Virus record (IMG/VR): IMGVR_UViG_3300032288_001184
Location: 1 to 37,804 of that record
Source of the DNA: a virus
Length of the DNA: 37,804 nucleotides
Reading direction: 5' to 3' (one strand)
Notes under the pieces: generated by a model
Told to the model about the DNA's origin: nothing
Seen by the model: only the letters and a program-made list of their open reading frames with translations
The model's database searches: none
Translations under genes and position numbers: made by a program
Part shown: positions 4,963-20,634 of the stretch, in pieces
Numbering within the stretch: the stretch's first letter is position 1
Layout of the letters: each line of letters begins with the position of its first letter

Positions 4963-6261
4963 TTAAGAAAGCCATGAAGGCAGGGATTCGGCAGCGGGTG
5001 CTGCTTCTACTGCACTGAATAACGGTGCAGCATTGGTGATGACAGCGGGGCGGCTGTCAGATTCGGGAACCACGGTCAACTTGCCAGCCATCTTGACCAC
5101 ATATTCTTGCTCCATACGGTTCAACTGGCGCTCGGTCAGCGTGACCTTTGTGCCGTCTTTTTTCTCCCATGTCAGCTTCTCAGCTTTCGTGGGTGTGACG
5201 AGTTTGGTTTCGTAGACAGCGCCTTTGGGGATGCCCATCTTGACCAGCTTCTCGGCCATCTCAACTTCGGGCAGCGCCCATGCGCGTGAGCCACGACCGT
5301 TGACGAGTTTGAGTCCGGGAATAGATTGACCAGCCTGCAAGCGGCGCAGTGCTTCTGCTTCAACACCTTCGAGGAGTTGGCGCATCAGAGGTGCGGCTTC
5401 CATGATCTGACGAATCTGTGCATCGTCCATCGTGGTGGGGTCTTTATCGGCGCTTTGTTGCGCGACATCGAGTGGTTGCGTTACTGTTGGCTGGAACATG
5501 ATCCCGACCTCCTTCATTACATTACCTGCCAGCGCGGCGCAATTACCCTTCGCACGGCAGAACTTACATTGACTGTCACCCGGCACCAATGGTGCATTAG
5601 GGTCATCGCAGCGTTGGCCTTCGACAACCATTTTGCCAATCATATCGAGGATTGCTGACACGGGCATTTCATGCGATGTAATTGGCTTCATGCCTTTGAT
5701 CGCCAGCTTGGGCTGGATGACCGTCAAGCGAACCCTTTTCCAAGGGTACTGGCCGTTTACAGGCAGCTTGAGCATAGCCAAGCAACCCATCGCATAGAGT
5801 TCGAGTTGGTGGTTGCCCTCAACCTCAACAACACCCATGCCGTCCTTGTAGTCGATGACCTCAAGAACTTCAGTGCCGTGAATTTGAATGTCAACCGTGC
5901 CGCTCATGTCGGTGCGACCAAGCAGGTGCGCGGGGTCAACCCGTGTCTCTGCGATCACATGACACATGCCGTGCTGCTCGATGATGCGATCTTTCACATA
6001 ATCGGTGGCAACTTTGACTCGGGCGGCGCGATCAGCGTCAACCTTGAACGAACCATCGTCATCGCTCAAGACTTGACCAATCATCGACTCAGGTGAAACA
6101 CCTTCGCTGAGACAGTGCTCCAAGAGCGTGTGGGAATGCGTGCCGTCAATGGCCGCAGGACCGGATCGATCATCGGGGTACTTAGCCTCCTCGCGGATCG
6201 AGCCGGGACAAGCAGCCCAACGATGCCGCTTGCTAGGGCTTAGTTGGGAGTGTTTTATCAT
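4963..6261 (-). CDS. DUF2800 family RecB/Cas4-like exonuclease
   Basis: 432 aa. A PD-(D/E)XK nuclease of the DUF2800 family. The catalytic signature is D124 (GTVD), D137-x-K139 (VIDYKDG) and Q152...Y156 (QLELY), the arrangement seen in AddB and Cas4. Four cysteines, C18 (ACPGS) and C232/C235/C241 (CKFCRAKGNC), bracket the nuclease as in Fe-S-cluster nucleases. It probably processes DNA ends for recombination together with the adjacent ssDNA-binding protein. The start at 6261 is chosen because it makes an ATGA overlap with the upstream gene; an ATG at 6285 would add eight residues with no better ribosome-binding site. Confidence 0.88.
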   Translation of the reverse strand: MIKHSQLSPSKRHRWAACPGSIREEAKYPDDRSGPAAIDGTHSHTLLEHCLSEGVSPESMIGQVLSDDDGSFKVDADRAARVKVATDYVKDRIIEQHGMCHVIAETRVDPAHLLGRTDMSGTVDIQIHGTEVLEVIDYKDGMGVVEVEGNHQLELYAMGCLAMLKLPVNGQYPWKRVRLTVIQPKLAIKGMKPITSHEMPVSAILDMIGKMVVEGQRCDDPNAPLVPGDSQCKFCRAKGNCAALAGNVMKEVGIMFQPTVTQPLDVAQQSADKDPTTMDDAQIRQIMEAAPLMRQLLEGVEAEALRRLQAGQSIPGLKLVNGRGSRAWALPEVEMAEKLVKMGIPKGAVYETKLVTPTKAEKLTWEKKDGTKVTLTERQLNRMEQEYVVKMAGKLTVVPESDSRPAVITNAAPLFSAVEAAPAAESLPSWLS

Positions 6262-7317: not shown

Positions 7318-7343
7318 AAACCCCGGTGGTTAGACCGGGGTTT
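7318..7343. terminator. Perfect 10-bp hairpin, terminator on the minus strand
   Basis: AAACCCCGGT (7318-7327) pairs with ACCGGGGTTT (7334-7343) around the loop GGTTAG. On the minus strand the stem is followed by TTTTTCTTTTT, the form of a Rho-independent terminator; it would stop antisense transcripts from the primase gene entering the replication operon. On the plus strand it forms a hairpin in the primase leader. Confidence 0.65.
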
Positions 7344-7391
7344 CAAAGGGATCAACATGAAGGTGACAACTGCATTGTCAGGAAACATTAT

Positions 7392-9875
7392 ATGAGCACA
7401 GGGCCACAAGTACAAGCACATCCAGCATCCATTGATGCGTACATCAGATTCGGTTGGTCACTCGTTCCCATTCCAGCAGGAACCAAGGGACCGCGCACAC
7501 CCGGTTGGAACCTCAAGCCCAACGCACTTAAATCACAAGCCGACTTGCCACCGGGCAACGGTATCGGTTTGGCCCACGCATACAGTGGAACGATGGCCCT
7601 TGACATCGATGACTGGGACACCACGGCCATGCTGCTTGGGCTGCAAGGCATCGACATTCAGGCGCTTTACAACGCCAATGATGCGGTGCACATTGACAGC
7701 GGTCGTGCGGGTCATGGCAAGCTGCTTTATGCGATGCCTTTGGGACTGGCGCTGCCATCGAAAAAGATCATTACCAATGGTGTGACCAGTTACGAATTGC
7801 GCTGCGCCACGGCCAACGGATTGACGGTGCAGGATGTACTGCCCCCATCAATTCACCCTGATACCAAGCAACCTTATTGCTGGGCAGGCAAGGGTCACTG
7901 GATGCGCTTACCAACGCTGCCGCAGCCATTACTCGATCTGTGGCAGGGCATGATCGAACAAGACAAGGTGCGATCCATCAGCACCGGTGATTCGATTGAC
8001 GCATCATGGGACGAGATTCGCAACGCTATCGAGTGCATCAACCCAAGCTGCTCACGCGAGGAATGGATCAGCGTAGGCATGGCCCTGCATTGGGCTGGCA
8101 CGCAGAGTGAGCAACTCGATCAGGCGTATCACTTGTGGCAAGAATGGAGCGCACAGAGCGAATCAAAATACCCCGGTGATCGTGAGATCGCGCATCAGTG
8201 GTTGTCGTTCAAAACCGACAAGGCCACCGCTGTTAAGTTGGGAACCCTTTTCCACATTGCACGCAAGTCAGGATGGACGCGCCCACTGCCCGATGCGACA
8301 TCATTGTTTGCCGCTGTTGACACCGCGCCCATCGCACCCAAAGACATCATGGCTGGCCTGCGTCCTGCGCCACCGGACATGGATATAAGTGTTTTCCCTA
8401 GTATCTTGCAAACCCGCGCACTTGAGATCAGCGACAGCGTGGGATGTGACCCACTGGTGCCTTTGTTCGCTGGTTTAAGCGCGGTTTGCGGGGTCATTGA
8501 TGCCCAGATGAGGCTTGAGTTGATGCCGGGCTTTAAAGTGCCGCCAGTGCTGTGGTTGATGACCTTGGGCGATCCCGCTGACAAGAAGTCACCCGGCTCA
8601 CGGCCCATGCTGGCCCCACTCAAAAACTTGGAAGCCGAAGACCGTCCACGCTACCAAAAGGAACTGCTCGATTGGGAGGGCAAAGAGGCAGCGTATGCGT
8701 CAGCCAAGAAGACATTCCTCGACTGGTCCGCATCACCTGATGCCATTCTTGGCGGTGACCAAGCACCAGTGGTTCCCGAGATGCCACCGCAGCCCGTACC
8801 AGTCAAAATCACGGTCAGCGACATCACCAGTCAGAAGCTGGTGCGCCATGCGTCTGAGCGTCCCCGTGGCTTGCTGTGTCACCTTGACGAGATGAACTCA
8901 TGGGTGCGTAAGTTGACCGATAAGACCAGCGGCGAGGATCGCTCTGCGTGGGTGGTGTCCTATGAGGCCGAGCGATATGAGATGGATCGTGTGGGCGCGG
9001 GGTCGATTCATGCTGAAAACTTGGCCGTGTCGATCTACGGGAACATCCAGCCCACGGTGTTCAGGCAAAGCATTGCCTCTCTCGCAGCGGATGGCCTGTT
9101 GCAACGATTTATACCAGCAATTTTGCGCGGCAACAAAACGCGCCTTGGTCATCCTATCCCCGAGTATTTGACAGCGGCTGCTGCATGGGAAAACACGCTG
9201 CGCTTGACCTTTGCGCTGCCACCTCAGACCTACAAGTTATCCCCAGAAGCATTCACAGCTTACCGTGAGTTCCAGTCATGGTACGAAGGGGCCAAGCAAG
9301 ACGAACGGCTGCTGCATTCGGGTGATGTGTTTATGACGGCCTTTGGCAAATTGGAAGGCACAGCGGGCCGATTGATTTTGCTGTTTCATGTCATCGAGAA
9401 CCCTTTCAACTTGATCGTGGCCGAGGATGTTGTCCACAGAGTGATTACCTTCATCAAGGGCTATTTGATCCCAGCATATCGCTATGCGTTTGGTGAGGTG
9501 GGTGGCACAAACACATTTGATGTGTGGGTCACGGACTACATCATTCACCACTGCGACAAACAAACGATCACGCTGTCAGAGATTAAGCGCGGTGGGCGCA
9601 GACAGTTCGATGGCATCAGCCCGTGGCAGCAGGATCAGTGGGTGCTTGGGGCCATGCAGATGTTGGAAACTGCCGGATGGGTGGTTCGCATGGATGACGG
9701 CAGTCGTGAGAACCAGCACCACGCACAGTGGGCCATCAATCCAGCCCTTGCGACACAGTTTGCCGAGCACCGTAAGCAGGTGATCGCGGCCAAGCAACGC
9801 CAGCTTGACGACATTTACAAACTCAGCACAAAAGGAAAGCCCCGTGTGTACGGGGCTGATGAGTTGGATGAATAA
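7392..9875 (+). CDS. Primase-polymerase / DUF3987 helicase fusion
   Basis: 827 aa from the ATG at 7392, which has AGGAAA upstream. The N-terminal part (about 10-200) is a bifunctional primase-polymerase domain with the metal-binding DID (D71, D73) and a GRAGHGK segment (H108). A PriCT-like helical domain follows at about 205-300 (SCSREEWISVGMALHWA). The rest is a DUF3987 region with a Walker-A-like GDPADKKSP and a Walker-B-like CHLDEMN. It probably primes and unwinds DNA for the family B polymerase. It is the only plus-strand gene in the left half of the genome, with its own hairpin-bearing leader and a bidirectional terminator immediately after its stop. Confidence 0.9.
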   Translation: MSTGPQVQAHPASIDAYIRFGWSLVPIPAGTKGPRTPGWNLKPNALKSQADLPPGNGIGLAHAYSGTMALDIDDWDTTAMLLGLQGIDIQALYNANDAVHIDSGRAGHGKLLYAMPLGLALPSKKIITNGVTSYELRCATANGLTVQDVLPPSIHPDTKQPYCWAGKGHWMRLPTLPQPLLDLWQGMIEQDKVRSISTGDSIDASWDEIRNAIECINPSCSREEWISVGMALHWAGTQSEQLDQAYHLWQEWSAQSESKYPGDREIAHQWLSFKTDKATAVKLGTLFHIARKSGWTRPLPDATSLFAAVDTAPIAPKDIMAGLRPAPPDMDISVFPSILQTRALEISDSVGCDPLVPLFAGLSAVCGVIDAQMRLELMPGFKVPPVLWLMTLGDPADKKSPGSRPMLAPLKNLEAEDRPRYQKELLDWEGKEAAYASAKKTFLDWSASPDAILGGDQAPVVPEMPPQPVPVKITVSDITSQKLVRHASERPRGLLCHLDEMNSWVRKLTDKTSGEDRSAWVVSYEAERYEMDRVGAGSIHAENLAVSIYGNIQPTVFRQSIASLAADGLLQRFIPAILRGNKTRLGHPIPEYLTAAAAWENTLRLTFALPPQTYKLSPEAFTAYREFQSWYEGAKQDERLLHSGDVFMTAFGKLEGTAGRLILLFHVIENPFNLIVAEDVVHRVITFIKGYLIPAYRYAFGEVGGTNTFDVWVTDYIIHHCDKQTITLSEIKRGGRRQFDGISPWQQDQWVLGAMQMLETAGWVVRMDDGSRENQHHAQWAINPALATQFAEHRKQVIAAKQRQLDDIYKLSTKGKPRVYGADELDE

Positions 9876-12477: not shown

Positions 12478-12497
12478 GACTCAATCGGTTTTTGTTT
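12403..12497. repeat. Tandem duplication of the 3' end of the HTH gene
   Basis: Positions 12403-12444 and 12456-12497 are near-identical, offset by 53 bp; both read TTGAAAGAGGGTCG, then a short variable stretch, then GACATGACTCAATCGGTTTT. The second copy covers the stop codon of the HTH gene. The first copy contains a 7-bp inverted repeat, CGATTGA/TCAATCG, that is broken in the second. Confidence 0.85.
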
Positions 12498-12741
12498 TCG
12501 ATGGGCGACCGCGCTTGCTTGCAACTTTGGGTGCACTGGGCGCGGGCAAAAAAGAATCGTGAAGCGCGGGGTTCATGGCTTCGACCATGCCCAGCACCTC
12601 GAGCAGTCGGGCGACAGCGGCGGTCGGTTTGCGGTCACCCGCTGCCCATTTGCGAAAAGTGAAAACGGGGACGCCCAGATAGGCGGCGGCTTGGGATTCG
12701 TCAAGGTTTAGGCGACTTTGTAGCGATTTAAATGGGTTCAT
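12481..12741 (-). CDS. HTH DNA-binding protein (Cro/antitoxin-like)
   Basis: 86 aa. Residues 14-50 (ESQAAAYLGVPVFTFRKWAAGDRKP...LLEVL) form a helix-turn-helix like those of XRE or HigA/MqsA-type regulators. A proline/alanine stretch and a basic tail (KRGRPSKTKTD) with an AT-hook-like GRP follow. It is a good candidate for a phage regulator and an alternative to the AP2-like protein as the factor that binds the ACCC-N3-GGGT palindromes. A minus-strand terminator lies just upstream, so it may have its own promoter. Confidence 0.8.
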   Translation of the reverse strand: MNPFKSLQSRLNLDESQAAAYLGVPVFTFRKWAAGDRKPTAAVARLLEVLGMVEAMNPALHDSFLPAPSAPKVASKRGRPSKTKTD

Positions 12742-12763: not shown

Positions 12764-12791
12764 AAAAAAGCCCCTAGCGCGGGACTAGGGG
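12764..12791 (-). terminator. Rho-independent terminator, minus strand
   Basis: CCCCTAG (12771-12777) pairs with CTAGGGG (12785-12791); on the minus strand the stem is followed by CTTTTTTG. It lies between the 20-aa peptide gene and the HTH gene, splitting the leftward early region into two units or allowing partial read-through. Confidence 0.85.
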
Positions 12792-14447: not shown

Positions 14448-14475
14448 ATTATATACCCGCTGGGTTCATTGTCAA
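14448..14475 (-). promoter_or_regulatory. Consensus sigma-70 leftward early promoter
   Basis: On the minus strand TTGACA (14470-14475) and TATAAT (14448-14453) are perfect -35 and -10 boxes 16 bp apart. One ACCC-N3-GGGT palindrome fills the spacer and a second abuts the -35 box. The first downstream gene starts at 14415. Confidence 0.9.
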
Positions 14476-14522
14476 CCCCGTGGGTAAACTATTTTGTAGG
14501 GATAAACCCTAACCCGCTGGGT
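14455..14522. promoter_or_regulatory. Left operator cluster (three ACCC-N3-GGGT palindromes)
   Basis: The sites are 14455-14465 (ACCCGCTGGGT), 14475-14485 (ACCCCGTGGGT) and 14512-14522 (ACCCGCTGGGT). The first lies between the -35 and -10 boxes, the second overlaps the -35 box by one base, and the third covers the final codons and stop of the AP2-like gene. The arrangement predicts repression of the early promoter by steric block. Confidence 0.82.
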
Positions 14523-15036
14523 TTAATCGGTAATTCAGCACCGCAGCGTCTCTATCCTGAGCCGTTGCAAAATACCCGAGGTGAATCAGCGCACCATCTG
14601 CGCCGCGCACGCGCCCTCGATAGGGTTTGCGCTGCTTTGTGAGTCGCGGCAGCTTCTCGCCCGTTCGCAACCAGTGCAGCACCACGCCAGCGGCAACGGT
14701 GCGCCCATCCCACACCACACGCGCCCCGCATGGGATGCAAACAGAGTCATCGAACGATTGACCGTCCAATGAATAGCGCCGCCATATTTCGCGGCGCATC
14801 AGTCGCCCGCCACGCTCCACAAATTCGACAGTCACACGGTGAGGCTTTTTAATCAGCGGCTTGGGTTTGCGCCCTCGTTTGTTTTTACGAATTGGCAACA
14901 CCTGCGCCACGGGTTCAGGGATTCCCAAGATTTCGCGCAGCTTTGAATCTGGCATTGCGTCTATCAAGTCGAAGTCTATTTCAGCGAATCGCGGCAAATT
15001 GAACACCGCTTCAACTAAATCATCATGTGTTTGCAT
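14509..15036 (-). CDS. AP2-domain DNA-binding protein, relic of an HNH-AP2 homing endonuclease
   Basis: 175 aa from the ATG at 15036, with AAAGGAG upstream. Residues about 45-65 are basic with an AT-hook-like RGRKPKP. A segment near 90-125 (CIPCGARVVWDG and then VVLHWLRTGEKLP) resembles the start of HNH homing endonucleases, but the DHINGD...N core that should follow is absent. The protein goes straight into an AP2-like C-terminal domain (YRGRVRGADG...LGYFATAQDRDAAV). It should bind DNA without cutting. It lies between two clusters of ACCC-N3-GGGT palindromes, one of which overlaps its stop codon, so it is the first candidate for their ligand. The AP2 call is fairly firm; the regulator role is inferred. 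Confidence 0.72.
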   Translation of the reverse strand: MQTHDDLVEAVFNLPRFAEIDFDLIDAMPDSKLREILGIPEPVAQVLPIRKNKRGRKPKPLIKKPHRVTVEFVERGGRLMRREIWRRYSLDGQSFDDSVCIPCGARVVWDGRTVAAGVVLHWLRTGEKLPRLTKQRKPYRGRVRGADGALIHLGYFATAQDRDAAVLNYRLNPAG

Positions 15037-15064
15037 CTCTGCTCCTTTGTTCCCATGTTCCCAC

Positions 15065-15073
15065 ATTGTACCA
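15065..15073 (-). promoter_or_regulatory. Extended -10 promoter of the AP2-like gene
   Basis: On the minus strand this reads TGG-TACAAT, a five-of-six -10 box with a TGn extension. The implied transcript start near 15058 leaves a 22-nt leader containing AAAGGAG before the ATG at 15036. No -35 box with normal spacing is clear. Confidence 0.5.
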
Positions 15074-15236
15074 CACCTGCACCACTATTCCTTACAAAGA
15101 GATAAAAAGATTCTGAGATTCAAAAAATAAGTGGTTTAAAAAAAGTCGTATGAATATGGCTTCGCGCACGGGGAGTCCATACGTCACAGCACCGCGACAA
15201 TGTGGGAACACGGGAACAAAAAACCCCTTTTCCATG

Positions 15237-15349
15237 ACCCAGCGGGGGAACTCCACGGATTCTGAGACCCAGCGGGTGCAATGGTTCTTTGATGCGTGGT
15301 TTGTCCATCGGACGCAATGACCCAGCGGGTCACCAATGACCCACGGGGT
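15237..15349. promoter_or_regulatory. Right operator cluster (four palindromes)
   Basis: The sites are 15237-15247 (last base mismatched), 15267-15277, 15320-15330 and 15339-15349. The third and fourth share a longer context, CAATGACCCA...GGGTC, and lie 19 bp apart. Spacings of 30, 53 and 19 bp approximate whole helical turns in two of the three gaps. Confidence 0.78.
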
Positions 15350-15521
15350 CGGGCGTCTGTGTGCCCGTGATGCTCGGCGCAAAGTACCCAGCGCGGCGCG
15401 ATTACCCCGCGATTCCGGCAACCGGATTTATGGCCGAGGGGGCGGGTGGGGTCCCGCGACCCTCCGGTCCCGGCGACGGCGGTATCGCGAACAATTTTTT
15501 ATTTTTTCAAATTAACCCTAG

Positions 15522-15532
15522 ACCCAGTGGGT
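15522..15532. promoter_or_regulatory. Isolated operator upstream of the late operon
   Basis: ACCCAGTGGGT, 43 bp before the small terminase ATG. It is preceded by AACCCTAG, much as the site at 14512 is preceded by AACCCTA, so the extended element AACCCTA(G)-ACCC-N3-GGGT occurs at both ends of the control region. Confidence 0.7.
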
Positions 15533-15575
15533 CACATTAGCAATAATTCAAAACCTGTGGTAGATTCGGGGCACT

Positions 15576-16145
15576 ATGGAAACAAGGCAACCCTCATCCG
15601 TAGGCGCAGTTGTCACACCCGGCCAAGTTGACAAACTCGACAACCTCGAATTGCCCCAGTGGCTTTCTGTGCCTGACCCCAAACCGCCTGCCCCAACTCG
15701 GGCAATGCGTGAACTCGTCCATTCTCAATACGCCAGCATCTTTGAGCGCGTCATCGAGCAGATTTATCGTGGGCGCTCACTGGCCTCACTCCTTGAGGAC
15801 GATCACCGTGAAATCAGCTATGAGGATTTTTTGCGCTGGGTCAAGCGTGATCCGATGCGCCATGAGCGATTCAAAGAAGCGCAGGAGTCGCGGACCGAGT
15901 TCATCGCCGGTGAGATTCTTGAGATTGCCGATGCCGAGGACTCCATAGAAGATGTGCAGCGATCTCGTTTGAAGATCGACACGCGCAAGTGGCTCATGGG
16001 TGCTTGGAACAGGAAACGCTACGGTGAAACCAAGACACTTGAGATGGCTGGCTCGATCTCGATTACGAATGCCCTTGCGGCGGCTCGTGAACGCATGATC
16101 GAGGGTGAAGTGATTGACGTGACACCGAAAGAACTGGACAACTGA
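15576..16145 (+). CDS. Terminase small subunit
   Basis: 189 aa. The central part (FERVIEQIYRGRSLASLLEDD...SYEDFLRWVKRDP) is the DNA-binding helical region of small terminases, followed by ERFKEAQESR, a long helix and the KIDTRKWLMGAWNRKRYG signature common to this subunit. It recognises phage DNA and loads the large subunit for packaging. The stop overlaps the large-subunit start (TGATG). Only a weak ribosome-binding sequence precedes the ATG, so the first 20 or so residues are the least certain part. Confidence 0.9.
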   Translation: METRQPSSVGAVVTPGQVDKLDNLELPQWLSVPDPKPPAPTRAMRELVHSQYASIFERVIEQIYRGRSLASLLEDDHREISYEDFLRWVKRDPMRHERFKEAQESRTEFIAGEILEIADAEDSIEDVQRSRLKIDTRKWLMGAWNRKRYGETKTLEMAGSISITNALAAARERMIEGEVIDVTPKELDN

Positions 16146-18078: not shown

Positions 18079-20272
18079 TCCAACAGGAATTACGGCTGCT
18101 GCGGCAGTCGCAGTAGGCGGCTCAACCAAGGACAAAAGCAACGCTGATGTTCTTGCCACCGCACGCACACGACTTGACATGGCAATCTCGGCATTGTCCG
18201 AGTCGCGTGAAGACGAACTTGACGATTTGCGGTTTTATGCGGCGTCGCCTGACAATCAATGGCAGTGGCCCGCCGATGTGCTGGCAACCCGTGGCGCGGT
18301 GCAAGGTCAAACGATCAACGCACGCCCGTGTCTGACCATCAACAAGCTGCCACAGCACGTCCATCAAGTCACAAACGAGCAACGTCAAAACCGCCCACAG
18401 CCAAAAGTCATCCCTGCTGATGACGCTGCGGACGAAGAAGTGGCAGAGGTTTACAACGGCGTGATTCGTCACATCGAATACATCTCTGATGCAGATGTGG
18501 CATACGACACAGCGTGTGAAAACCAAGTGGCCTACGGCGAAGGTTATGTGCGTATCCTGACCGAGTATTGCGACGAAAAATCATTCGATCAAGACATCAA
18601 AATTGGTCGCATTCGCAATAGTTTCAGCGTCTACATGGACCCACTGATTCAAGACCCCTGTGGTGCAGACGCCGAGTGGTGCTTTATCACCGAAGACCTG
18701 CCCCGTTCCGAGTACGAGCGTCTGTATCCCAACGCTGTACCCATCACCACCTTGCAAACGCTAGGCGTCGGTGATCAAGAAATCTCTCAATGGCTCAATG
18801 AAGACACTGTTCGCATTGCTGAATATTTCTTCAAGCAGTACACCAGTGAAAAGTTGAACCTGTACCCCGGCAACGTGACGGCATTTGACGGCACACCCGA
18901 GGACAAAGTGCTCAAAGCGCAATTTGGCGCACCTGTGAAAAGCCGCAAATCCGAGCGTTGCAAGGTCAAATGGCTCAAAATCAACGGTTACGAGGTGCTT
19001 GAAGAAGCCGATTGGGCCGGTGTTCACATCCCTGTGATTCGCTGCGTTGGCAACGAATTTGAGGTCGATGGCCGCTTGTATGTGTCTGGTTTGGTCCGAA
19101 ATGCCAAAGATGCCCAGCGCATGTACAACTACTGGGTGTCGCAAGAAGCTGAAATGCTGGCGCTAGCCCCCAAAGCACCGTTCATTGGCTACGGTGGTCA
19201 GTTTGAAGGCTATGAAATGCAGTGGAAGACTGCCAATACGACCAACTGGCCGTATTTGGAGGTCAATCCAGACGTTACAGACGGTCAAGGTGCAGTTCTC
19301 CCACTGCCACAGCGTGCACAGCCTCCAATGGCCTCCTCGGGCCTCCTGCAAGCCAAGGCTGGCGCGTCTGATGACATCAAATCATCGACCGGTCAGTACA
19401 ACGCTGCGCTGGGCATGACATCGAATGAGCGTTCAGGCAAGGCCATCTTGGCCCGTCAAAAAGAAAGCGACATCGGCACATACCACTATGTTGACAACTA
19501 CGCCCGCATGATCCGTTATGTTGGCCGTCAACTGGTTGACTTGATCCCCAAAATTTACGATACGCAGCGCGTGGCCCGCATCATTGGTGAAGATGGTGAA
19601 TCCACCACCGCCAAGATGAATCCACAGCAGCCCGAGGCGGTCAAGAAAATCGTTAACGAGCAAGGCATCGTGATCGACAAGATTTACAACCCATCCGTGG
19701 GCAAGTACGATGTTCAGGTCATCACTGGTCCCGGTTATGCCACCAAGCGTCAAGAGGCTTTGGAGGCAATGGCCCAGTTGCTGCAAGGCAACCCGCAGTT
19801 GTGGTCCGTGGCAGGCGACTTGTTCGTCAAGAACATGGACTGGCCGGGTGCTCAAGAGATGGCAAAGCGTTTTGCCAAGACCATCGATCCAAAAATCATT
19901 GGCGACGACGAAGACAATCCAGCGTTGGCCGCAGCCAAGCAGCAAATGGAAGCCATGAACCAAGAACTGCAACAAATGCACAGCATGTTGCAAAACGTGC
20001 AACAGTCGTTCGAGGCACGCGACATTGAGGTCAAAGAATACAAGGCTCAAGTGGACGCATACAATGCCGAAACGAACCGCATCAAAGCCGTTCAGGCGGG
20101 CATGTCACCCGAGCAGATTCAAGACATTGTGATGGGCACGCTTCATGCCGCTATGGACAGCGGCGATGTGGTTGCAGGCGCGTCCATGATGCGCGAGAAT
20201 CCGGCCATGCCTGAACCGGGTGAAGCACAGCCCGAGATGCCAGCACAACCAATGGGAGGTATGCCTCAATGA
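18071..20272 (+). CDS. P22-like portal protein
   Basis: 733 aa, close to the 725 aa of the P22 portal. The protein forms the dodecameric ring through which DNA enters and leaves and on which the tail assembles. Typical features are the N-terminal YAASPDNQW, the TINKLPQHVHQVTNEQRQNRP segment, a central wing and stem region, and a C-terminal helical barrel-like region rich in Gln and Ala (QMEAMNQELQQMHSMLQNVQ) ending in a Met/Pro-rich tail. It overlaps the GroES-like gene in front and the ferritin-like gene behind (ATGA), so the three are translationally coupled. Confidence 0.93.
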   Translation: MADPTGITAAAAVAVGGSTKDKSNADVLATARTRLDMAISALSESREDELDDLRFYAASPDNQWQWPADVLATRGAVQGQTINARPCLTINKLPQHVHQVTNEQRQNRPQPKVIPADDAADEEVAEVYNGVIRHIEYISDADVAYDTACENQVAYGEGYVRILTEYCDEKSFDQDIKIGRIRNSFSVYMDPLIQDPCGADAEWCFITEDLPRSEYERLYPNAVPITTLQTLGVGDQEISQWLNEDTVRIAEYFFKQYTSEKLNLYPGNVTAFDGTPEDKVLKAQFGAPVKSRKSERCKVKWLKINGYEVLEEADWAGVHIPVIRCVGNEFEVDGRLYVSGLVRNAKDAQRMYNYWVSQEAEMLALAPKAPFIGYGGQFEGYEMQWKTANTTNWPYLEVNPDVTDGQGAVLPLPQRAQPPMASSGLLQAKAGASDDIKSSTGQYNAALGMTSNERSGKAILARQKESDIGTYHYVDNYARMIRYVGRQLVDLIPKIYDTQRVARIIGEDGESTTAKMNPQQPEAVKKIVNEQGIVIDKIYNPSVGKYDVQVITGPGYATKRQEALEAMAQLLQGNPQLWSVAGDLFVKNMDWPGAQEMAKRFAKTIDPKIIGDDEDNPALAAAKQQMEAMNQELQQMHSMLQNVQQSFEARDIEVKEYKAQVDAYNAETNRIKAVQAGMSPEQIQDIVMGTLHAAMDSGDVVAGASMMRENPAMPEPGEAQPEMPAQPMGGMPQ

Positions 20273-20634
20273 GCACCGCAGCAGATTTTGTAGGAACACT
20301 GTTTCTTGCCCGCGATGTGGCGCATTCGGTGCATCTCAACACGCGCAGCTTTTCCAAGCATACCGCTTTGAACATCTTCTATGATCGAATTGTTGACGCA
20401 ACTGACGATTTTGCTGAAACATACCAAGGTCGATATGGTCTAATTGGCCCCATCAGCTTGATGTCTGCCAAAAAAACTGGCAACATCACGGAATTCTTGG
20501 AGGATTCGTTGGCAGATATTGAAAAAATGCGGTATGAAGTGTGCGACAAATCGGACACGGCGTTGCAGCAGTTGATCGATAACATTGTCGAGGTGTACCT
20601 TCGCACCCTTTACAAGCTAAAATTCTTGGCATAA
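20269..20634 (+). CDS. DUF5856-like ferritin/Dps-fold protein
   Basis: 121 aa, all helical. LARDVAHSVHLNTRSFSKHTAL followed by FYDRIVDATDDFAETYQGRYG places His, Asp and Glu at positions typical of the four-helix ferritin/Dps family. Similar proteins are annotated DUF5856 or Dps-like in phages. Whether it binds metal or DNA is unknown. It sits directly after the portal gene (ATGA overlap), where head-completion or early-ejected proteins are often encoded. Confidence 0.72.
   Translation: MSTAADFVGTLFLARDVAHSVHLNTRSFSKHTALNIFYDRIVDATDDFAETYQGRYGLIGPISLMSAKKTGNITEFLEDSLADIEKMRYEVCDKSDTALQQLIDNIVEVYLRTLYKLKFLA

Follow-up and report, generated by a model that had tools for sequence, protein, structure and literature searches.

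Lambda CI-like repressors have an XRE-type fold and several operators, and one such protein can repress one promoter and activate another from a fixed position. In Bacillus phage phi29, several sites for protein p4 lie between the early promoters and the late promoter, including sites on the early -35 elements, and p4 has been measured to repress the early promoters and to activate the late promoter, whose -35 is poor (PMC3100819). The p4 protein of this A2c/A2b-A3 switch region has its own fold (N-hook), has been described as having no relatives, binds CTTTTT-15 bp-AAAATG and works with p6 (PMC3100819). The operator of MqsA is ACCT-N3-AGGT, and Asn97 and Arg101 of this protein are important for DNA binding (PMC5422877). 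No paper on dual regulators with helical phasing was retrieved in a search of the literature.

The record IMGVR_UViG_3300032288_001184 is a 37.8-kb genome of an uncultivated, lake-type phage, and its entire length of 37,804 bases, called the window below, was analysed. The window contains a P22-like head module (portal, scaffold, coat, head-closure and ejection proteins) and also encodes a DNA polymerase, a single-strand-binding protein, an exonuclease and a primase-helicase. Early genes run leftward and late genes rightward from a point of divergence at about 14.4-15.6 kb. The primase-helicase gene (7326-9875) is opposite in direction to the other early genes and convergent with the operon of a helix-turn-helix (HTH) protein, an orientation identical in all relatives checked. 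The nearest named relative is phage DSL-LC05 (OR003940), which is metagenome-assembled and assigned to the proposed family 'Luchaoviridae'; its publication makes no mention of promoters, palindromes or a repressor (PMC10611076). No match to Phage_integrase PF00589 was found anywhere in the window record, PHROG scans of the main ORFs of the window gave no integrase or other lysogeny gene, and the phage family is apparently lytic. A TerL search of GTDB genomes found a 3.2-kb MAG contig as the sole match. Relatives were collected by TerL and HTH searches of IMG/VR, which yielded about 180 loci, 99 of them with non-redundant control regions.

The region of divergence contains an array of ACCC-N3-GGGT palindromes. 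Judging from the sequence, it is probable that they are the operators of one phage-encoded regulator, an 86-aa XRE-fold protein, which would repress the early genes and activate the late ones. The sites of the window are the following.

14455-14465, minus strand: operator ACCCAGCGGGT (read on the minus strand), which occupies the early promoter's -35/-10 spacer
14475-14485, minus strand: operator ACCCACGGGGT, which overlaps the early -35 at its upstream edge
14512-14522, minus strand: operator ACCCAGCGGGT, 57 bp upstream of the site at 14455
15237-15247, strand not given: imperfect operator ACCCAGCGGGG, with one mismatch
15267-15277, strand not given: operator ACCCAGCGGGT, middle cluster
15320-15330, strand not given: operator ACCCAGCGGGT, middle cluster
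15339-15349, strand not given: operator ACCCACGGGGT, middle cluster
15522-15532, plus strand: proximal late operator ACCCAGTGGGT, centred 49 bp before the TerS ATG and keeping the conserved helical phase

An earlier note on this DNA had described at least eight sites (seven perfect and one with a single mismatch) in 14455-15532 and had proposed a count against shuffled sequence. The array is real and far beyond chance: 0.41 perfect matches are expected per window, and none of 100 shuffles reached seven. The motif had not been noticed in other control regions on reading, and no perfect site was found in the 37,804 bases outside 14455-15532. With one mismatch allowed, the whole window contains 18 matches (including the seven perfect ones) against 11.5 expected, near chance and with no excess elsewhere; spacers other than 3 between ACCC and GGGT give 0 or 1 match each. 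The array comprises two clusters, the left one (14455-14522, three sites) at the leftward promoter and the right one (15237-15532, five sites) before TerS; a 185-aa AP2-like ORF (14509-15066, minus strand) is for the most part located between the two. The extended element AACCCTAG, with AACCCTA(G) before ACCC, does occur at both ends of the array, as had been stated, but only few relatives have it; it is thus no defining part of the site and was rejected as a general feature.

Conservation in related phages, the second comparison proposed in the note, proved to be strong. Most of the 99 non-redundant control regions have 3-11 sites at the same place, with the consensus ACCCANYGGGT, and six are found there in DSL-LC05. 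The 91 relatives' contigs with enough upstream DNA contain 519 perfect sites in the 1.3 kb before TerS (median of six sites) and 18 in the other 911 kb; the sites are about 220-fold denser in the control regions than elsewhere in these contigs. The core over 360 distinct sites is ACCC-A-N-(T/C)-GGGT, i.e., ACCCANTGGGT, often with C for T in one half. A second left site 58-60 bp away is the commonest arrangement among relatives. The proximal sites are the most symmetric class (73 of 81 symmetric, compared with 154 of 297 middle sites). The central base of the palindrome is biased in direction in relatives, from 47 to 440 bp before TerS: the middle cluster has ACT 80 times and AGT 11 times, and the late site has AAT 43 times and ATT four times. 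The sites are thus directional despite their symmetric arms, and the window's own middle sites have the opposite direction.

The left cluster coincides with a strong promoter.

14448-14475, minus strand: early (leftward) sigma70 promoter TTGACA-16-TATAAT, with 12 of 12 consensus bases

One operator is located inside the spacer of this promoter and another against its -35. A site between the hexamers or on the -35 of a promoter with at least 9 of 12 consensus bases was found in 72 of 81 regions, compared with 2.5% at random positions, and GGGT abuts the -10 directly in most early promoters of relatives. The -35/-10 spacer is a standard position for a repressor of sigma70 promoters. The location of the sites in or against the -35/-10 elements of good early promoters suggests that they are placed as those of a repressor would be. 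A collection-wide search with the embedded pattern TTGACA-N5-ACCCN3GGGT-N-TANAAT gave four contigs without TerS, which were set aside.

The note had offered a second interpretation of the array, iterons for replication; an initiator would then bind the sites at an origin. The many short repeats beside AT-rich DNA and a conserved non-coding core would agree with it, but it is very improbable. The sites are in or next to promoters and fill the early -35/-10 spacer in most relatives, their spacing is irregular, unlike the regularly spaced direct repeats of iterons, and they track the small XRE protein; a separate inverted repeat around the conserved core is a better origin candidate. Between the repeats in question (15046-15069 and 15197-15220; 24 nt, 96% complementary, TTTGTTCCCATGTTCCCACATTGT) lies a non-coding core of about 130 nt, which is conserved. 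Relatives keep this core (GTGCTTTT..AAAAAGTCGTA..CGCG..GGAG) and have other repeats on its flanks (TGTGACAA, TTACCG...). The core with its inverted repeat is a candidate origin of replication, to which a second protein, varying separately, would bind.

The right cluster precedes the first late gene and its promoter.

15558-15566, plus strand: late promoter, extended -10 TGGTAGATT lacking a good -35; the leader from the putative start is predicted to measure about 3 nt
15576-16145, plus strand: terminase small subunit (TerS), first late gene (phrog_1482, 1.4e-23)

Nearly all relatives possess a -10 element (4/6, often TG-extended) upstream of TerS, near a CACTATGG start. The -10 matches the consensus at 4/6 in 93 of 96 late promoters, 65 have the TG extension, and the -35 is mostly 3/6. 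In nearly all relatives, the late promoter is immediately preceded by another conserved element, which consists of a G-rich stretch and then (T/C)C(A/G)CGAACAATTTTTTATTTTTTC (15435-15515 in the window) and possibly serves in packaging or as part of an origin.

The position of the proximal site relative to the late promoter varies in steps. The centre of the operator nearest to the TerS ATG is 47-51, 57-60 or 67-70 bp away from it in 77 of 81 regions. Measured to the start of the late -10, the distances of the proximal site are 31-36, 42-44 or 52-54 bp, with outliers of 75, 86, 86 and 92 bp; three of these four regions beyond 54 bp (75, 86 and 86) are in phase, and the site at -92 does not fit. 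The spacing in 80 of 81 regions (about 33, 43 or 53 bp, rarely 75 or 86) corresponds to whole helical turns, and the Rayleigh R at 10.5 bp is 0.863 (n=81), with a nominal p-value which is not trustworthy because the sequences are related. Degraded sites in three relatives are likewise in phase, and a dozen regions have no recognisable proximal site. At least 40 changes of spacing class are required on the TerS-TerL tree, as many as with shuffled labels, and even the window's own clade of five includes spacings of 49, 59 and 69. The chance that 40 independent draws over 27 distances hit only the 12 observed values is about 1e-14; the count of changes may be too high owing to recombination between TerS and the control region, which does not, however, create the phasing. 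Spacings between neighbouring sites within the right cluster show no helical phasing (R 0.06).

Strict helix-face spacing at a weak promoter fits an activator that touches the polymerase, and we infer from this geometry that the proximal site would serve to activate the late promoter; contact-dependent repression would phase identically. The HTH protein could instead be a repressor only, of an autoregulatory or immunity type, that holds both early and late promoters off while another factor activates the late genes. XRE-fold proteins are mostly repressors, the PHROG matches of the family members include transcriptional repressors, the middle array looks like multi-operator repression, and the middle sites show weak phasing with the late -10 (R 0.24), as looping might give. 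However, the proximal site is located upstream of the late core promoter and off it, unlike the early site, contact with the polymerase predicts just such a strict helix-face spacing to a weak extended -10 promoter, and the left sites are out of phase with the late -10 (R 0.08). Pure repression is thus considered unlikely.

The proposed binder of all the sites is encoded in the early block.

12481-12741, minus strand: 86-aa XRE/MqsA-C-terminal-like HTH protein

This protein is a homologue of the 'repressor protein C' of DSL-LC05 (WJZ48189.1). Its co-occurrence with the sites was followed in non-redundant early-operon loci selected by TerL regardless of the HTH gene, with the whole early operon present: it is found in all 32 operons with at least three sites, and both operons without it have no site. 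The array also covaries with residue 31. At least three sites are present in 75 of 80 non-redundant loci with Lys31 and in none of ten with His or Asn31 (Fisher 5e-10), a covariation which rests on few independent events, since the ten non-Lys31 loci form three clades. Those loci have other repeats at the same place, CAATGGGTT (T27/N31), ATTGGTGC (A27/H31) and TGGGTGC (F27/H31). In Lys31 relatives with another residue 27 (Ala in L165 and L166, Pro in L088), the sites are degraded, but recognisable.

The claim that one factor uses the sites as its operators at the early/late switch thus draws support from promoter geometry, conservation and the covariation with the HTH protein. Of the two binders named in the note, the HTH protein fits and the AP2-like ORF does not. 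The latter is located inside the array, but it is missing in most motif-bearing relatives and present in L038, which has no motif. The protein encoded at 20269-20634 (phrog_858), which is filed as a starvation-inducible regulator, was rejected as well, as it is 73-75% identical in L058 and L063, where the motif has changed. A host regulator would not covary with a phage recognition helix. Binding by a host factor or by one of these other phage proteins is accordingly very improbable.

The best PDB match of the family profile is MqsA (E 0.0018), and F27 and K31 align with MqsA N97 and R101, if the aligned VNAFSRY stretch has the numbering that we take it to have in the MqsA structure. The AF2 model of the HTH protein (mean pLDDT 86.5) has helices at 3-11, 15-22, 26-34, 41-56 and 58-62; this predicted structure shows the five-helix XRE-type HTH fold, with residues 27 and 31 in helix 26-34. 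The best structural matches (Z 6-8, TM 0.45-0.58) include HigA2, the C-terminal domain of MqsA and Aca proteins; the XRE fold is common, so no function follows from it. The Pfam MqsA_antitoxin match (20.5 bits) is below the curated cut-off of 30 and covers only positions 76-120 of the 131 of the profile. The likeness to MqsA of E. coli and P. putida extends to the type of the HTH domain, the operator geometry (4-bp arms, 3-bp spacer) and the aligned specificity residues, whereas the inner base of each arm differs (ACCC-N3-GGGT versus ACCT-N3-AGGT). The phage protein also begins with the HTH and lacks the N-terminal zinc domain, no match to the MqsR toxin was found among the ten early-block ORFs in Pfam and PHROGs scans, and the sites form a multi-site array with a proposed role in a phage switch.

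A further element precedes the regulator gene.

12771-12791, minus strand: intrinsic terminator, about 29 nt upstream of the HTH start codon

Comparable terminators, with stems that differ but are complementary, were found in 63 of 90 relatives and in 22 of 450 random stretches; none was found at this place in the non-Lys31 groups. Few relatives (3 of 90) have promoter-like sequences ahead of the HTH gene. With a terminator just before it, the gene is probably reached by polymerases that read through on the early transcript, and this likely mode of producing the regulator would delay the switch.

The proposed course of events is as follows. After infection, the host RNA polymerase would use the consensus early promoter (14475 to 14448, leftward). 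The regulator gene, on the same strand downstream in the early block behind the terminator, would be expressed by read-through, and its product would accumulate with some delay. A dimer of the regulator would then bind ACCCANTGGGT, and the occupied site between the -35 and -10 of the early promoter, together with the one against the -35, would block the polymerase, also curbing the regulator's own synthesis. At the other end of the array, the protein bound at the proximal site, upstream of the weak late core elements by a varying number of helical turns on a constant face, would contact the polymerase and turn on TerS and the late operon. The middle sites may raise local occupancy or set a threshold. 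It is most likely that the same switch, with a changeable 'lock and key', recurs in about a hundred related phages.

Such a switch would resemble that of phi29 p4: one early phage protein has predicted sites both at the early promoters and ahead of a late promoter that is weak. It differs in the XRE HTH protein, the compact 11-bp palindrome and the site usually placed inside the -35/-10 spacer, and late activation, measured for p4, is here deduced from helical phasing. As the protein of the window has the XRE fold, membership in the p4 family is not claimed. In comparison with lambda CI, the early and late promoters are 0.5-1 kb apart, no integrase was found, and the proximal sites are displaced in helical-turn steps. 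The array, the early promoter and the HTH protein are common to the window and DSL-LC05.

Some relatives have other components at this place. In MW202483 (L187), a more distant relative (TerL 66%), GTTTACNTAAAC palindromes and ACTACCAA repeats are located at about 5200-6150, and among its early genes a protein annotated as DnaA helix-turn-helix (DnaA-domain-IV-like) replaces the XRE protein. This array and its putative binder, although a single example, indicate that a regulator and its operators may be swapped together as one module. Different repeats are also seen in the same control region of L060, L066 and L067 (AAACATC..GATGTTT, GTGACCGATTGGTCAGTGAC, TTGTGACAA); L060 and L038 are without the HTH protein and have other or no repeats there. 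One can speculate, with some reserve, that the switch is an exchangeable lock-and-key module. Each lineage would change the specificity of the regulator jointly with the entire set of operators, in one place and in some cases by taking up an unrelated DNA-binding protein, like the immunity regions of temperate phages and perhaps avoiding cross-regulation in co-infection, and the late spacing would evolve only by whole helical turns.

The analysis assigns a mechanism, from sequence alone, to an undescribed control region and a barely annotated regulator of a large uncultivated phage family. The prediction is that residues 27 and 31 of the recognition helix would read the arms of the palindrome. 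The phase-keeping spacing changes, at least 40 in number, and the several co-changed regulator-operator pairs offer ready material for the study of activator geometry and of the DNA specificity of XRE/MqsA-type proteins.
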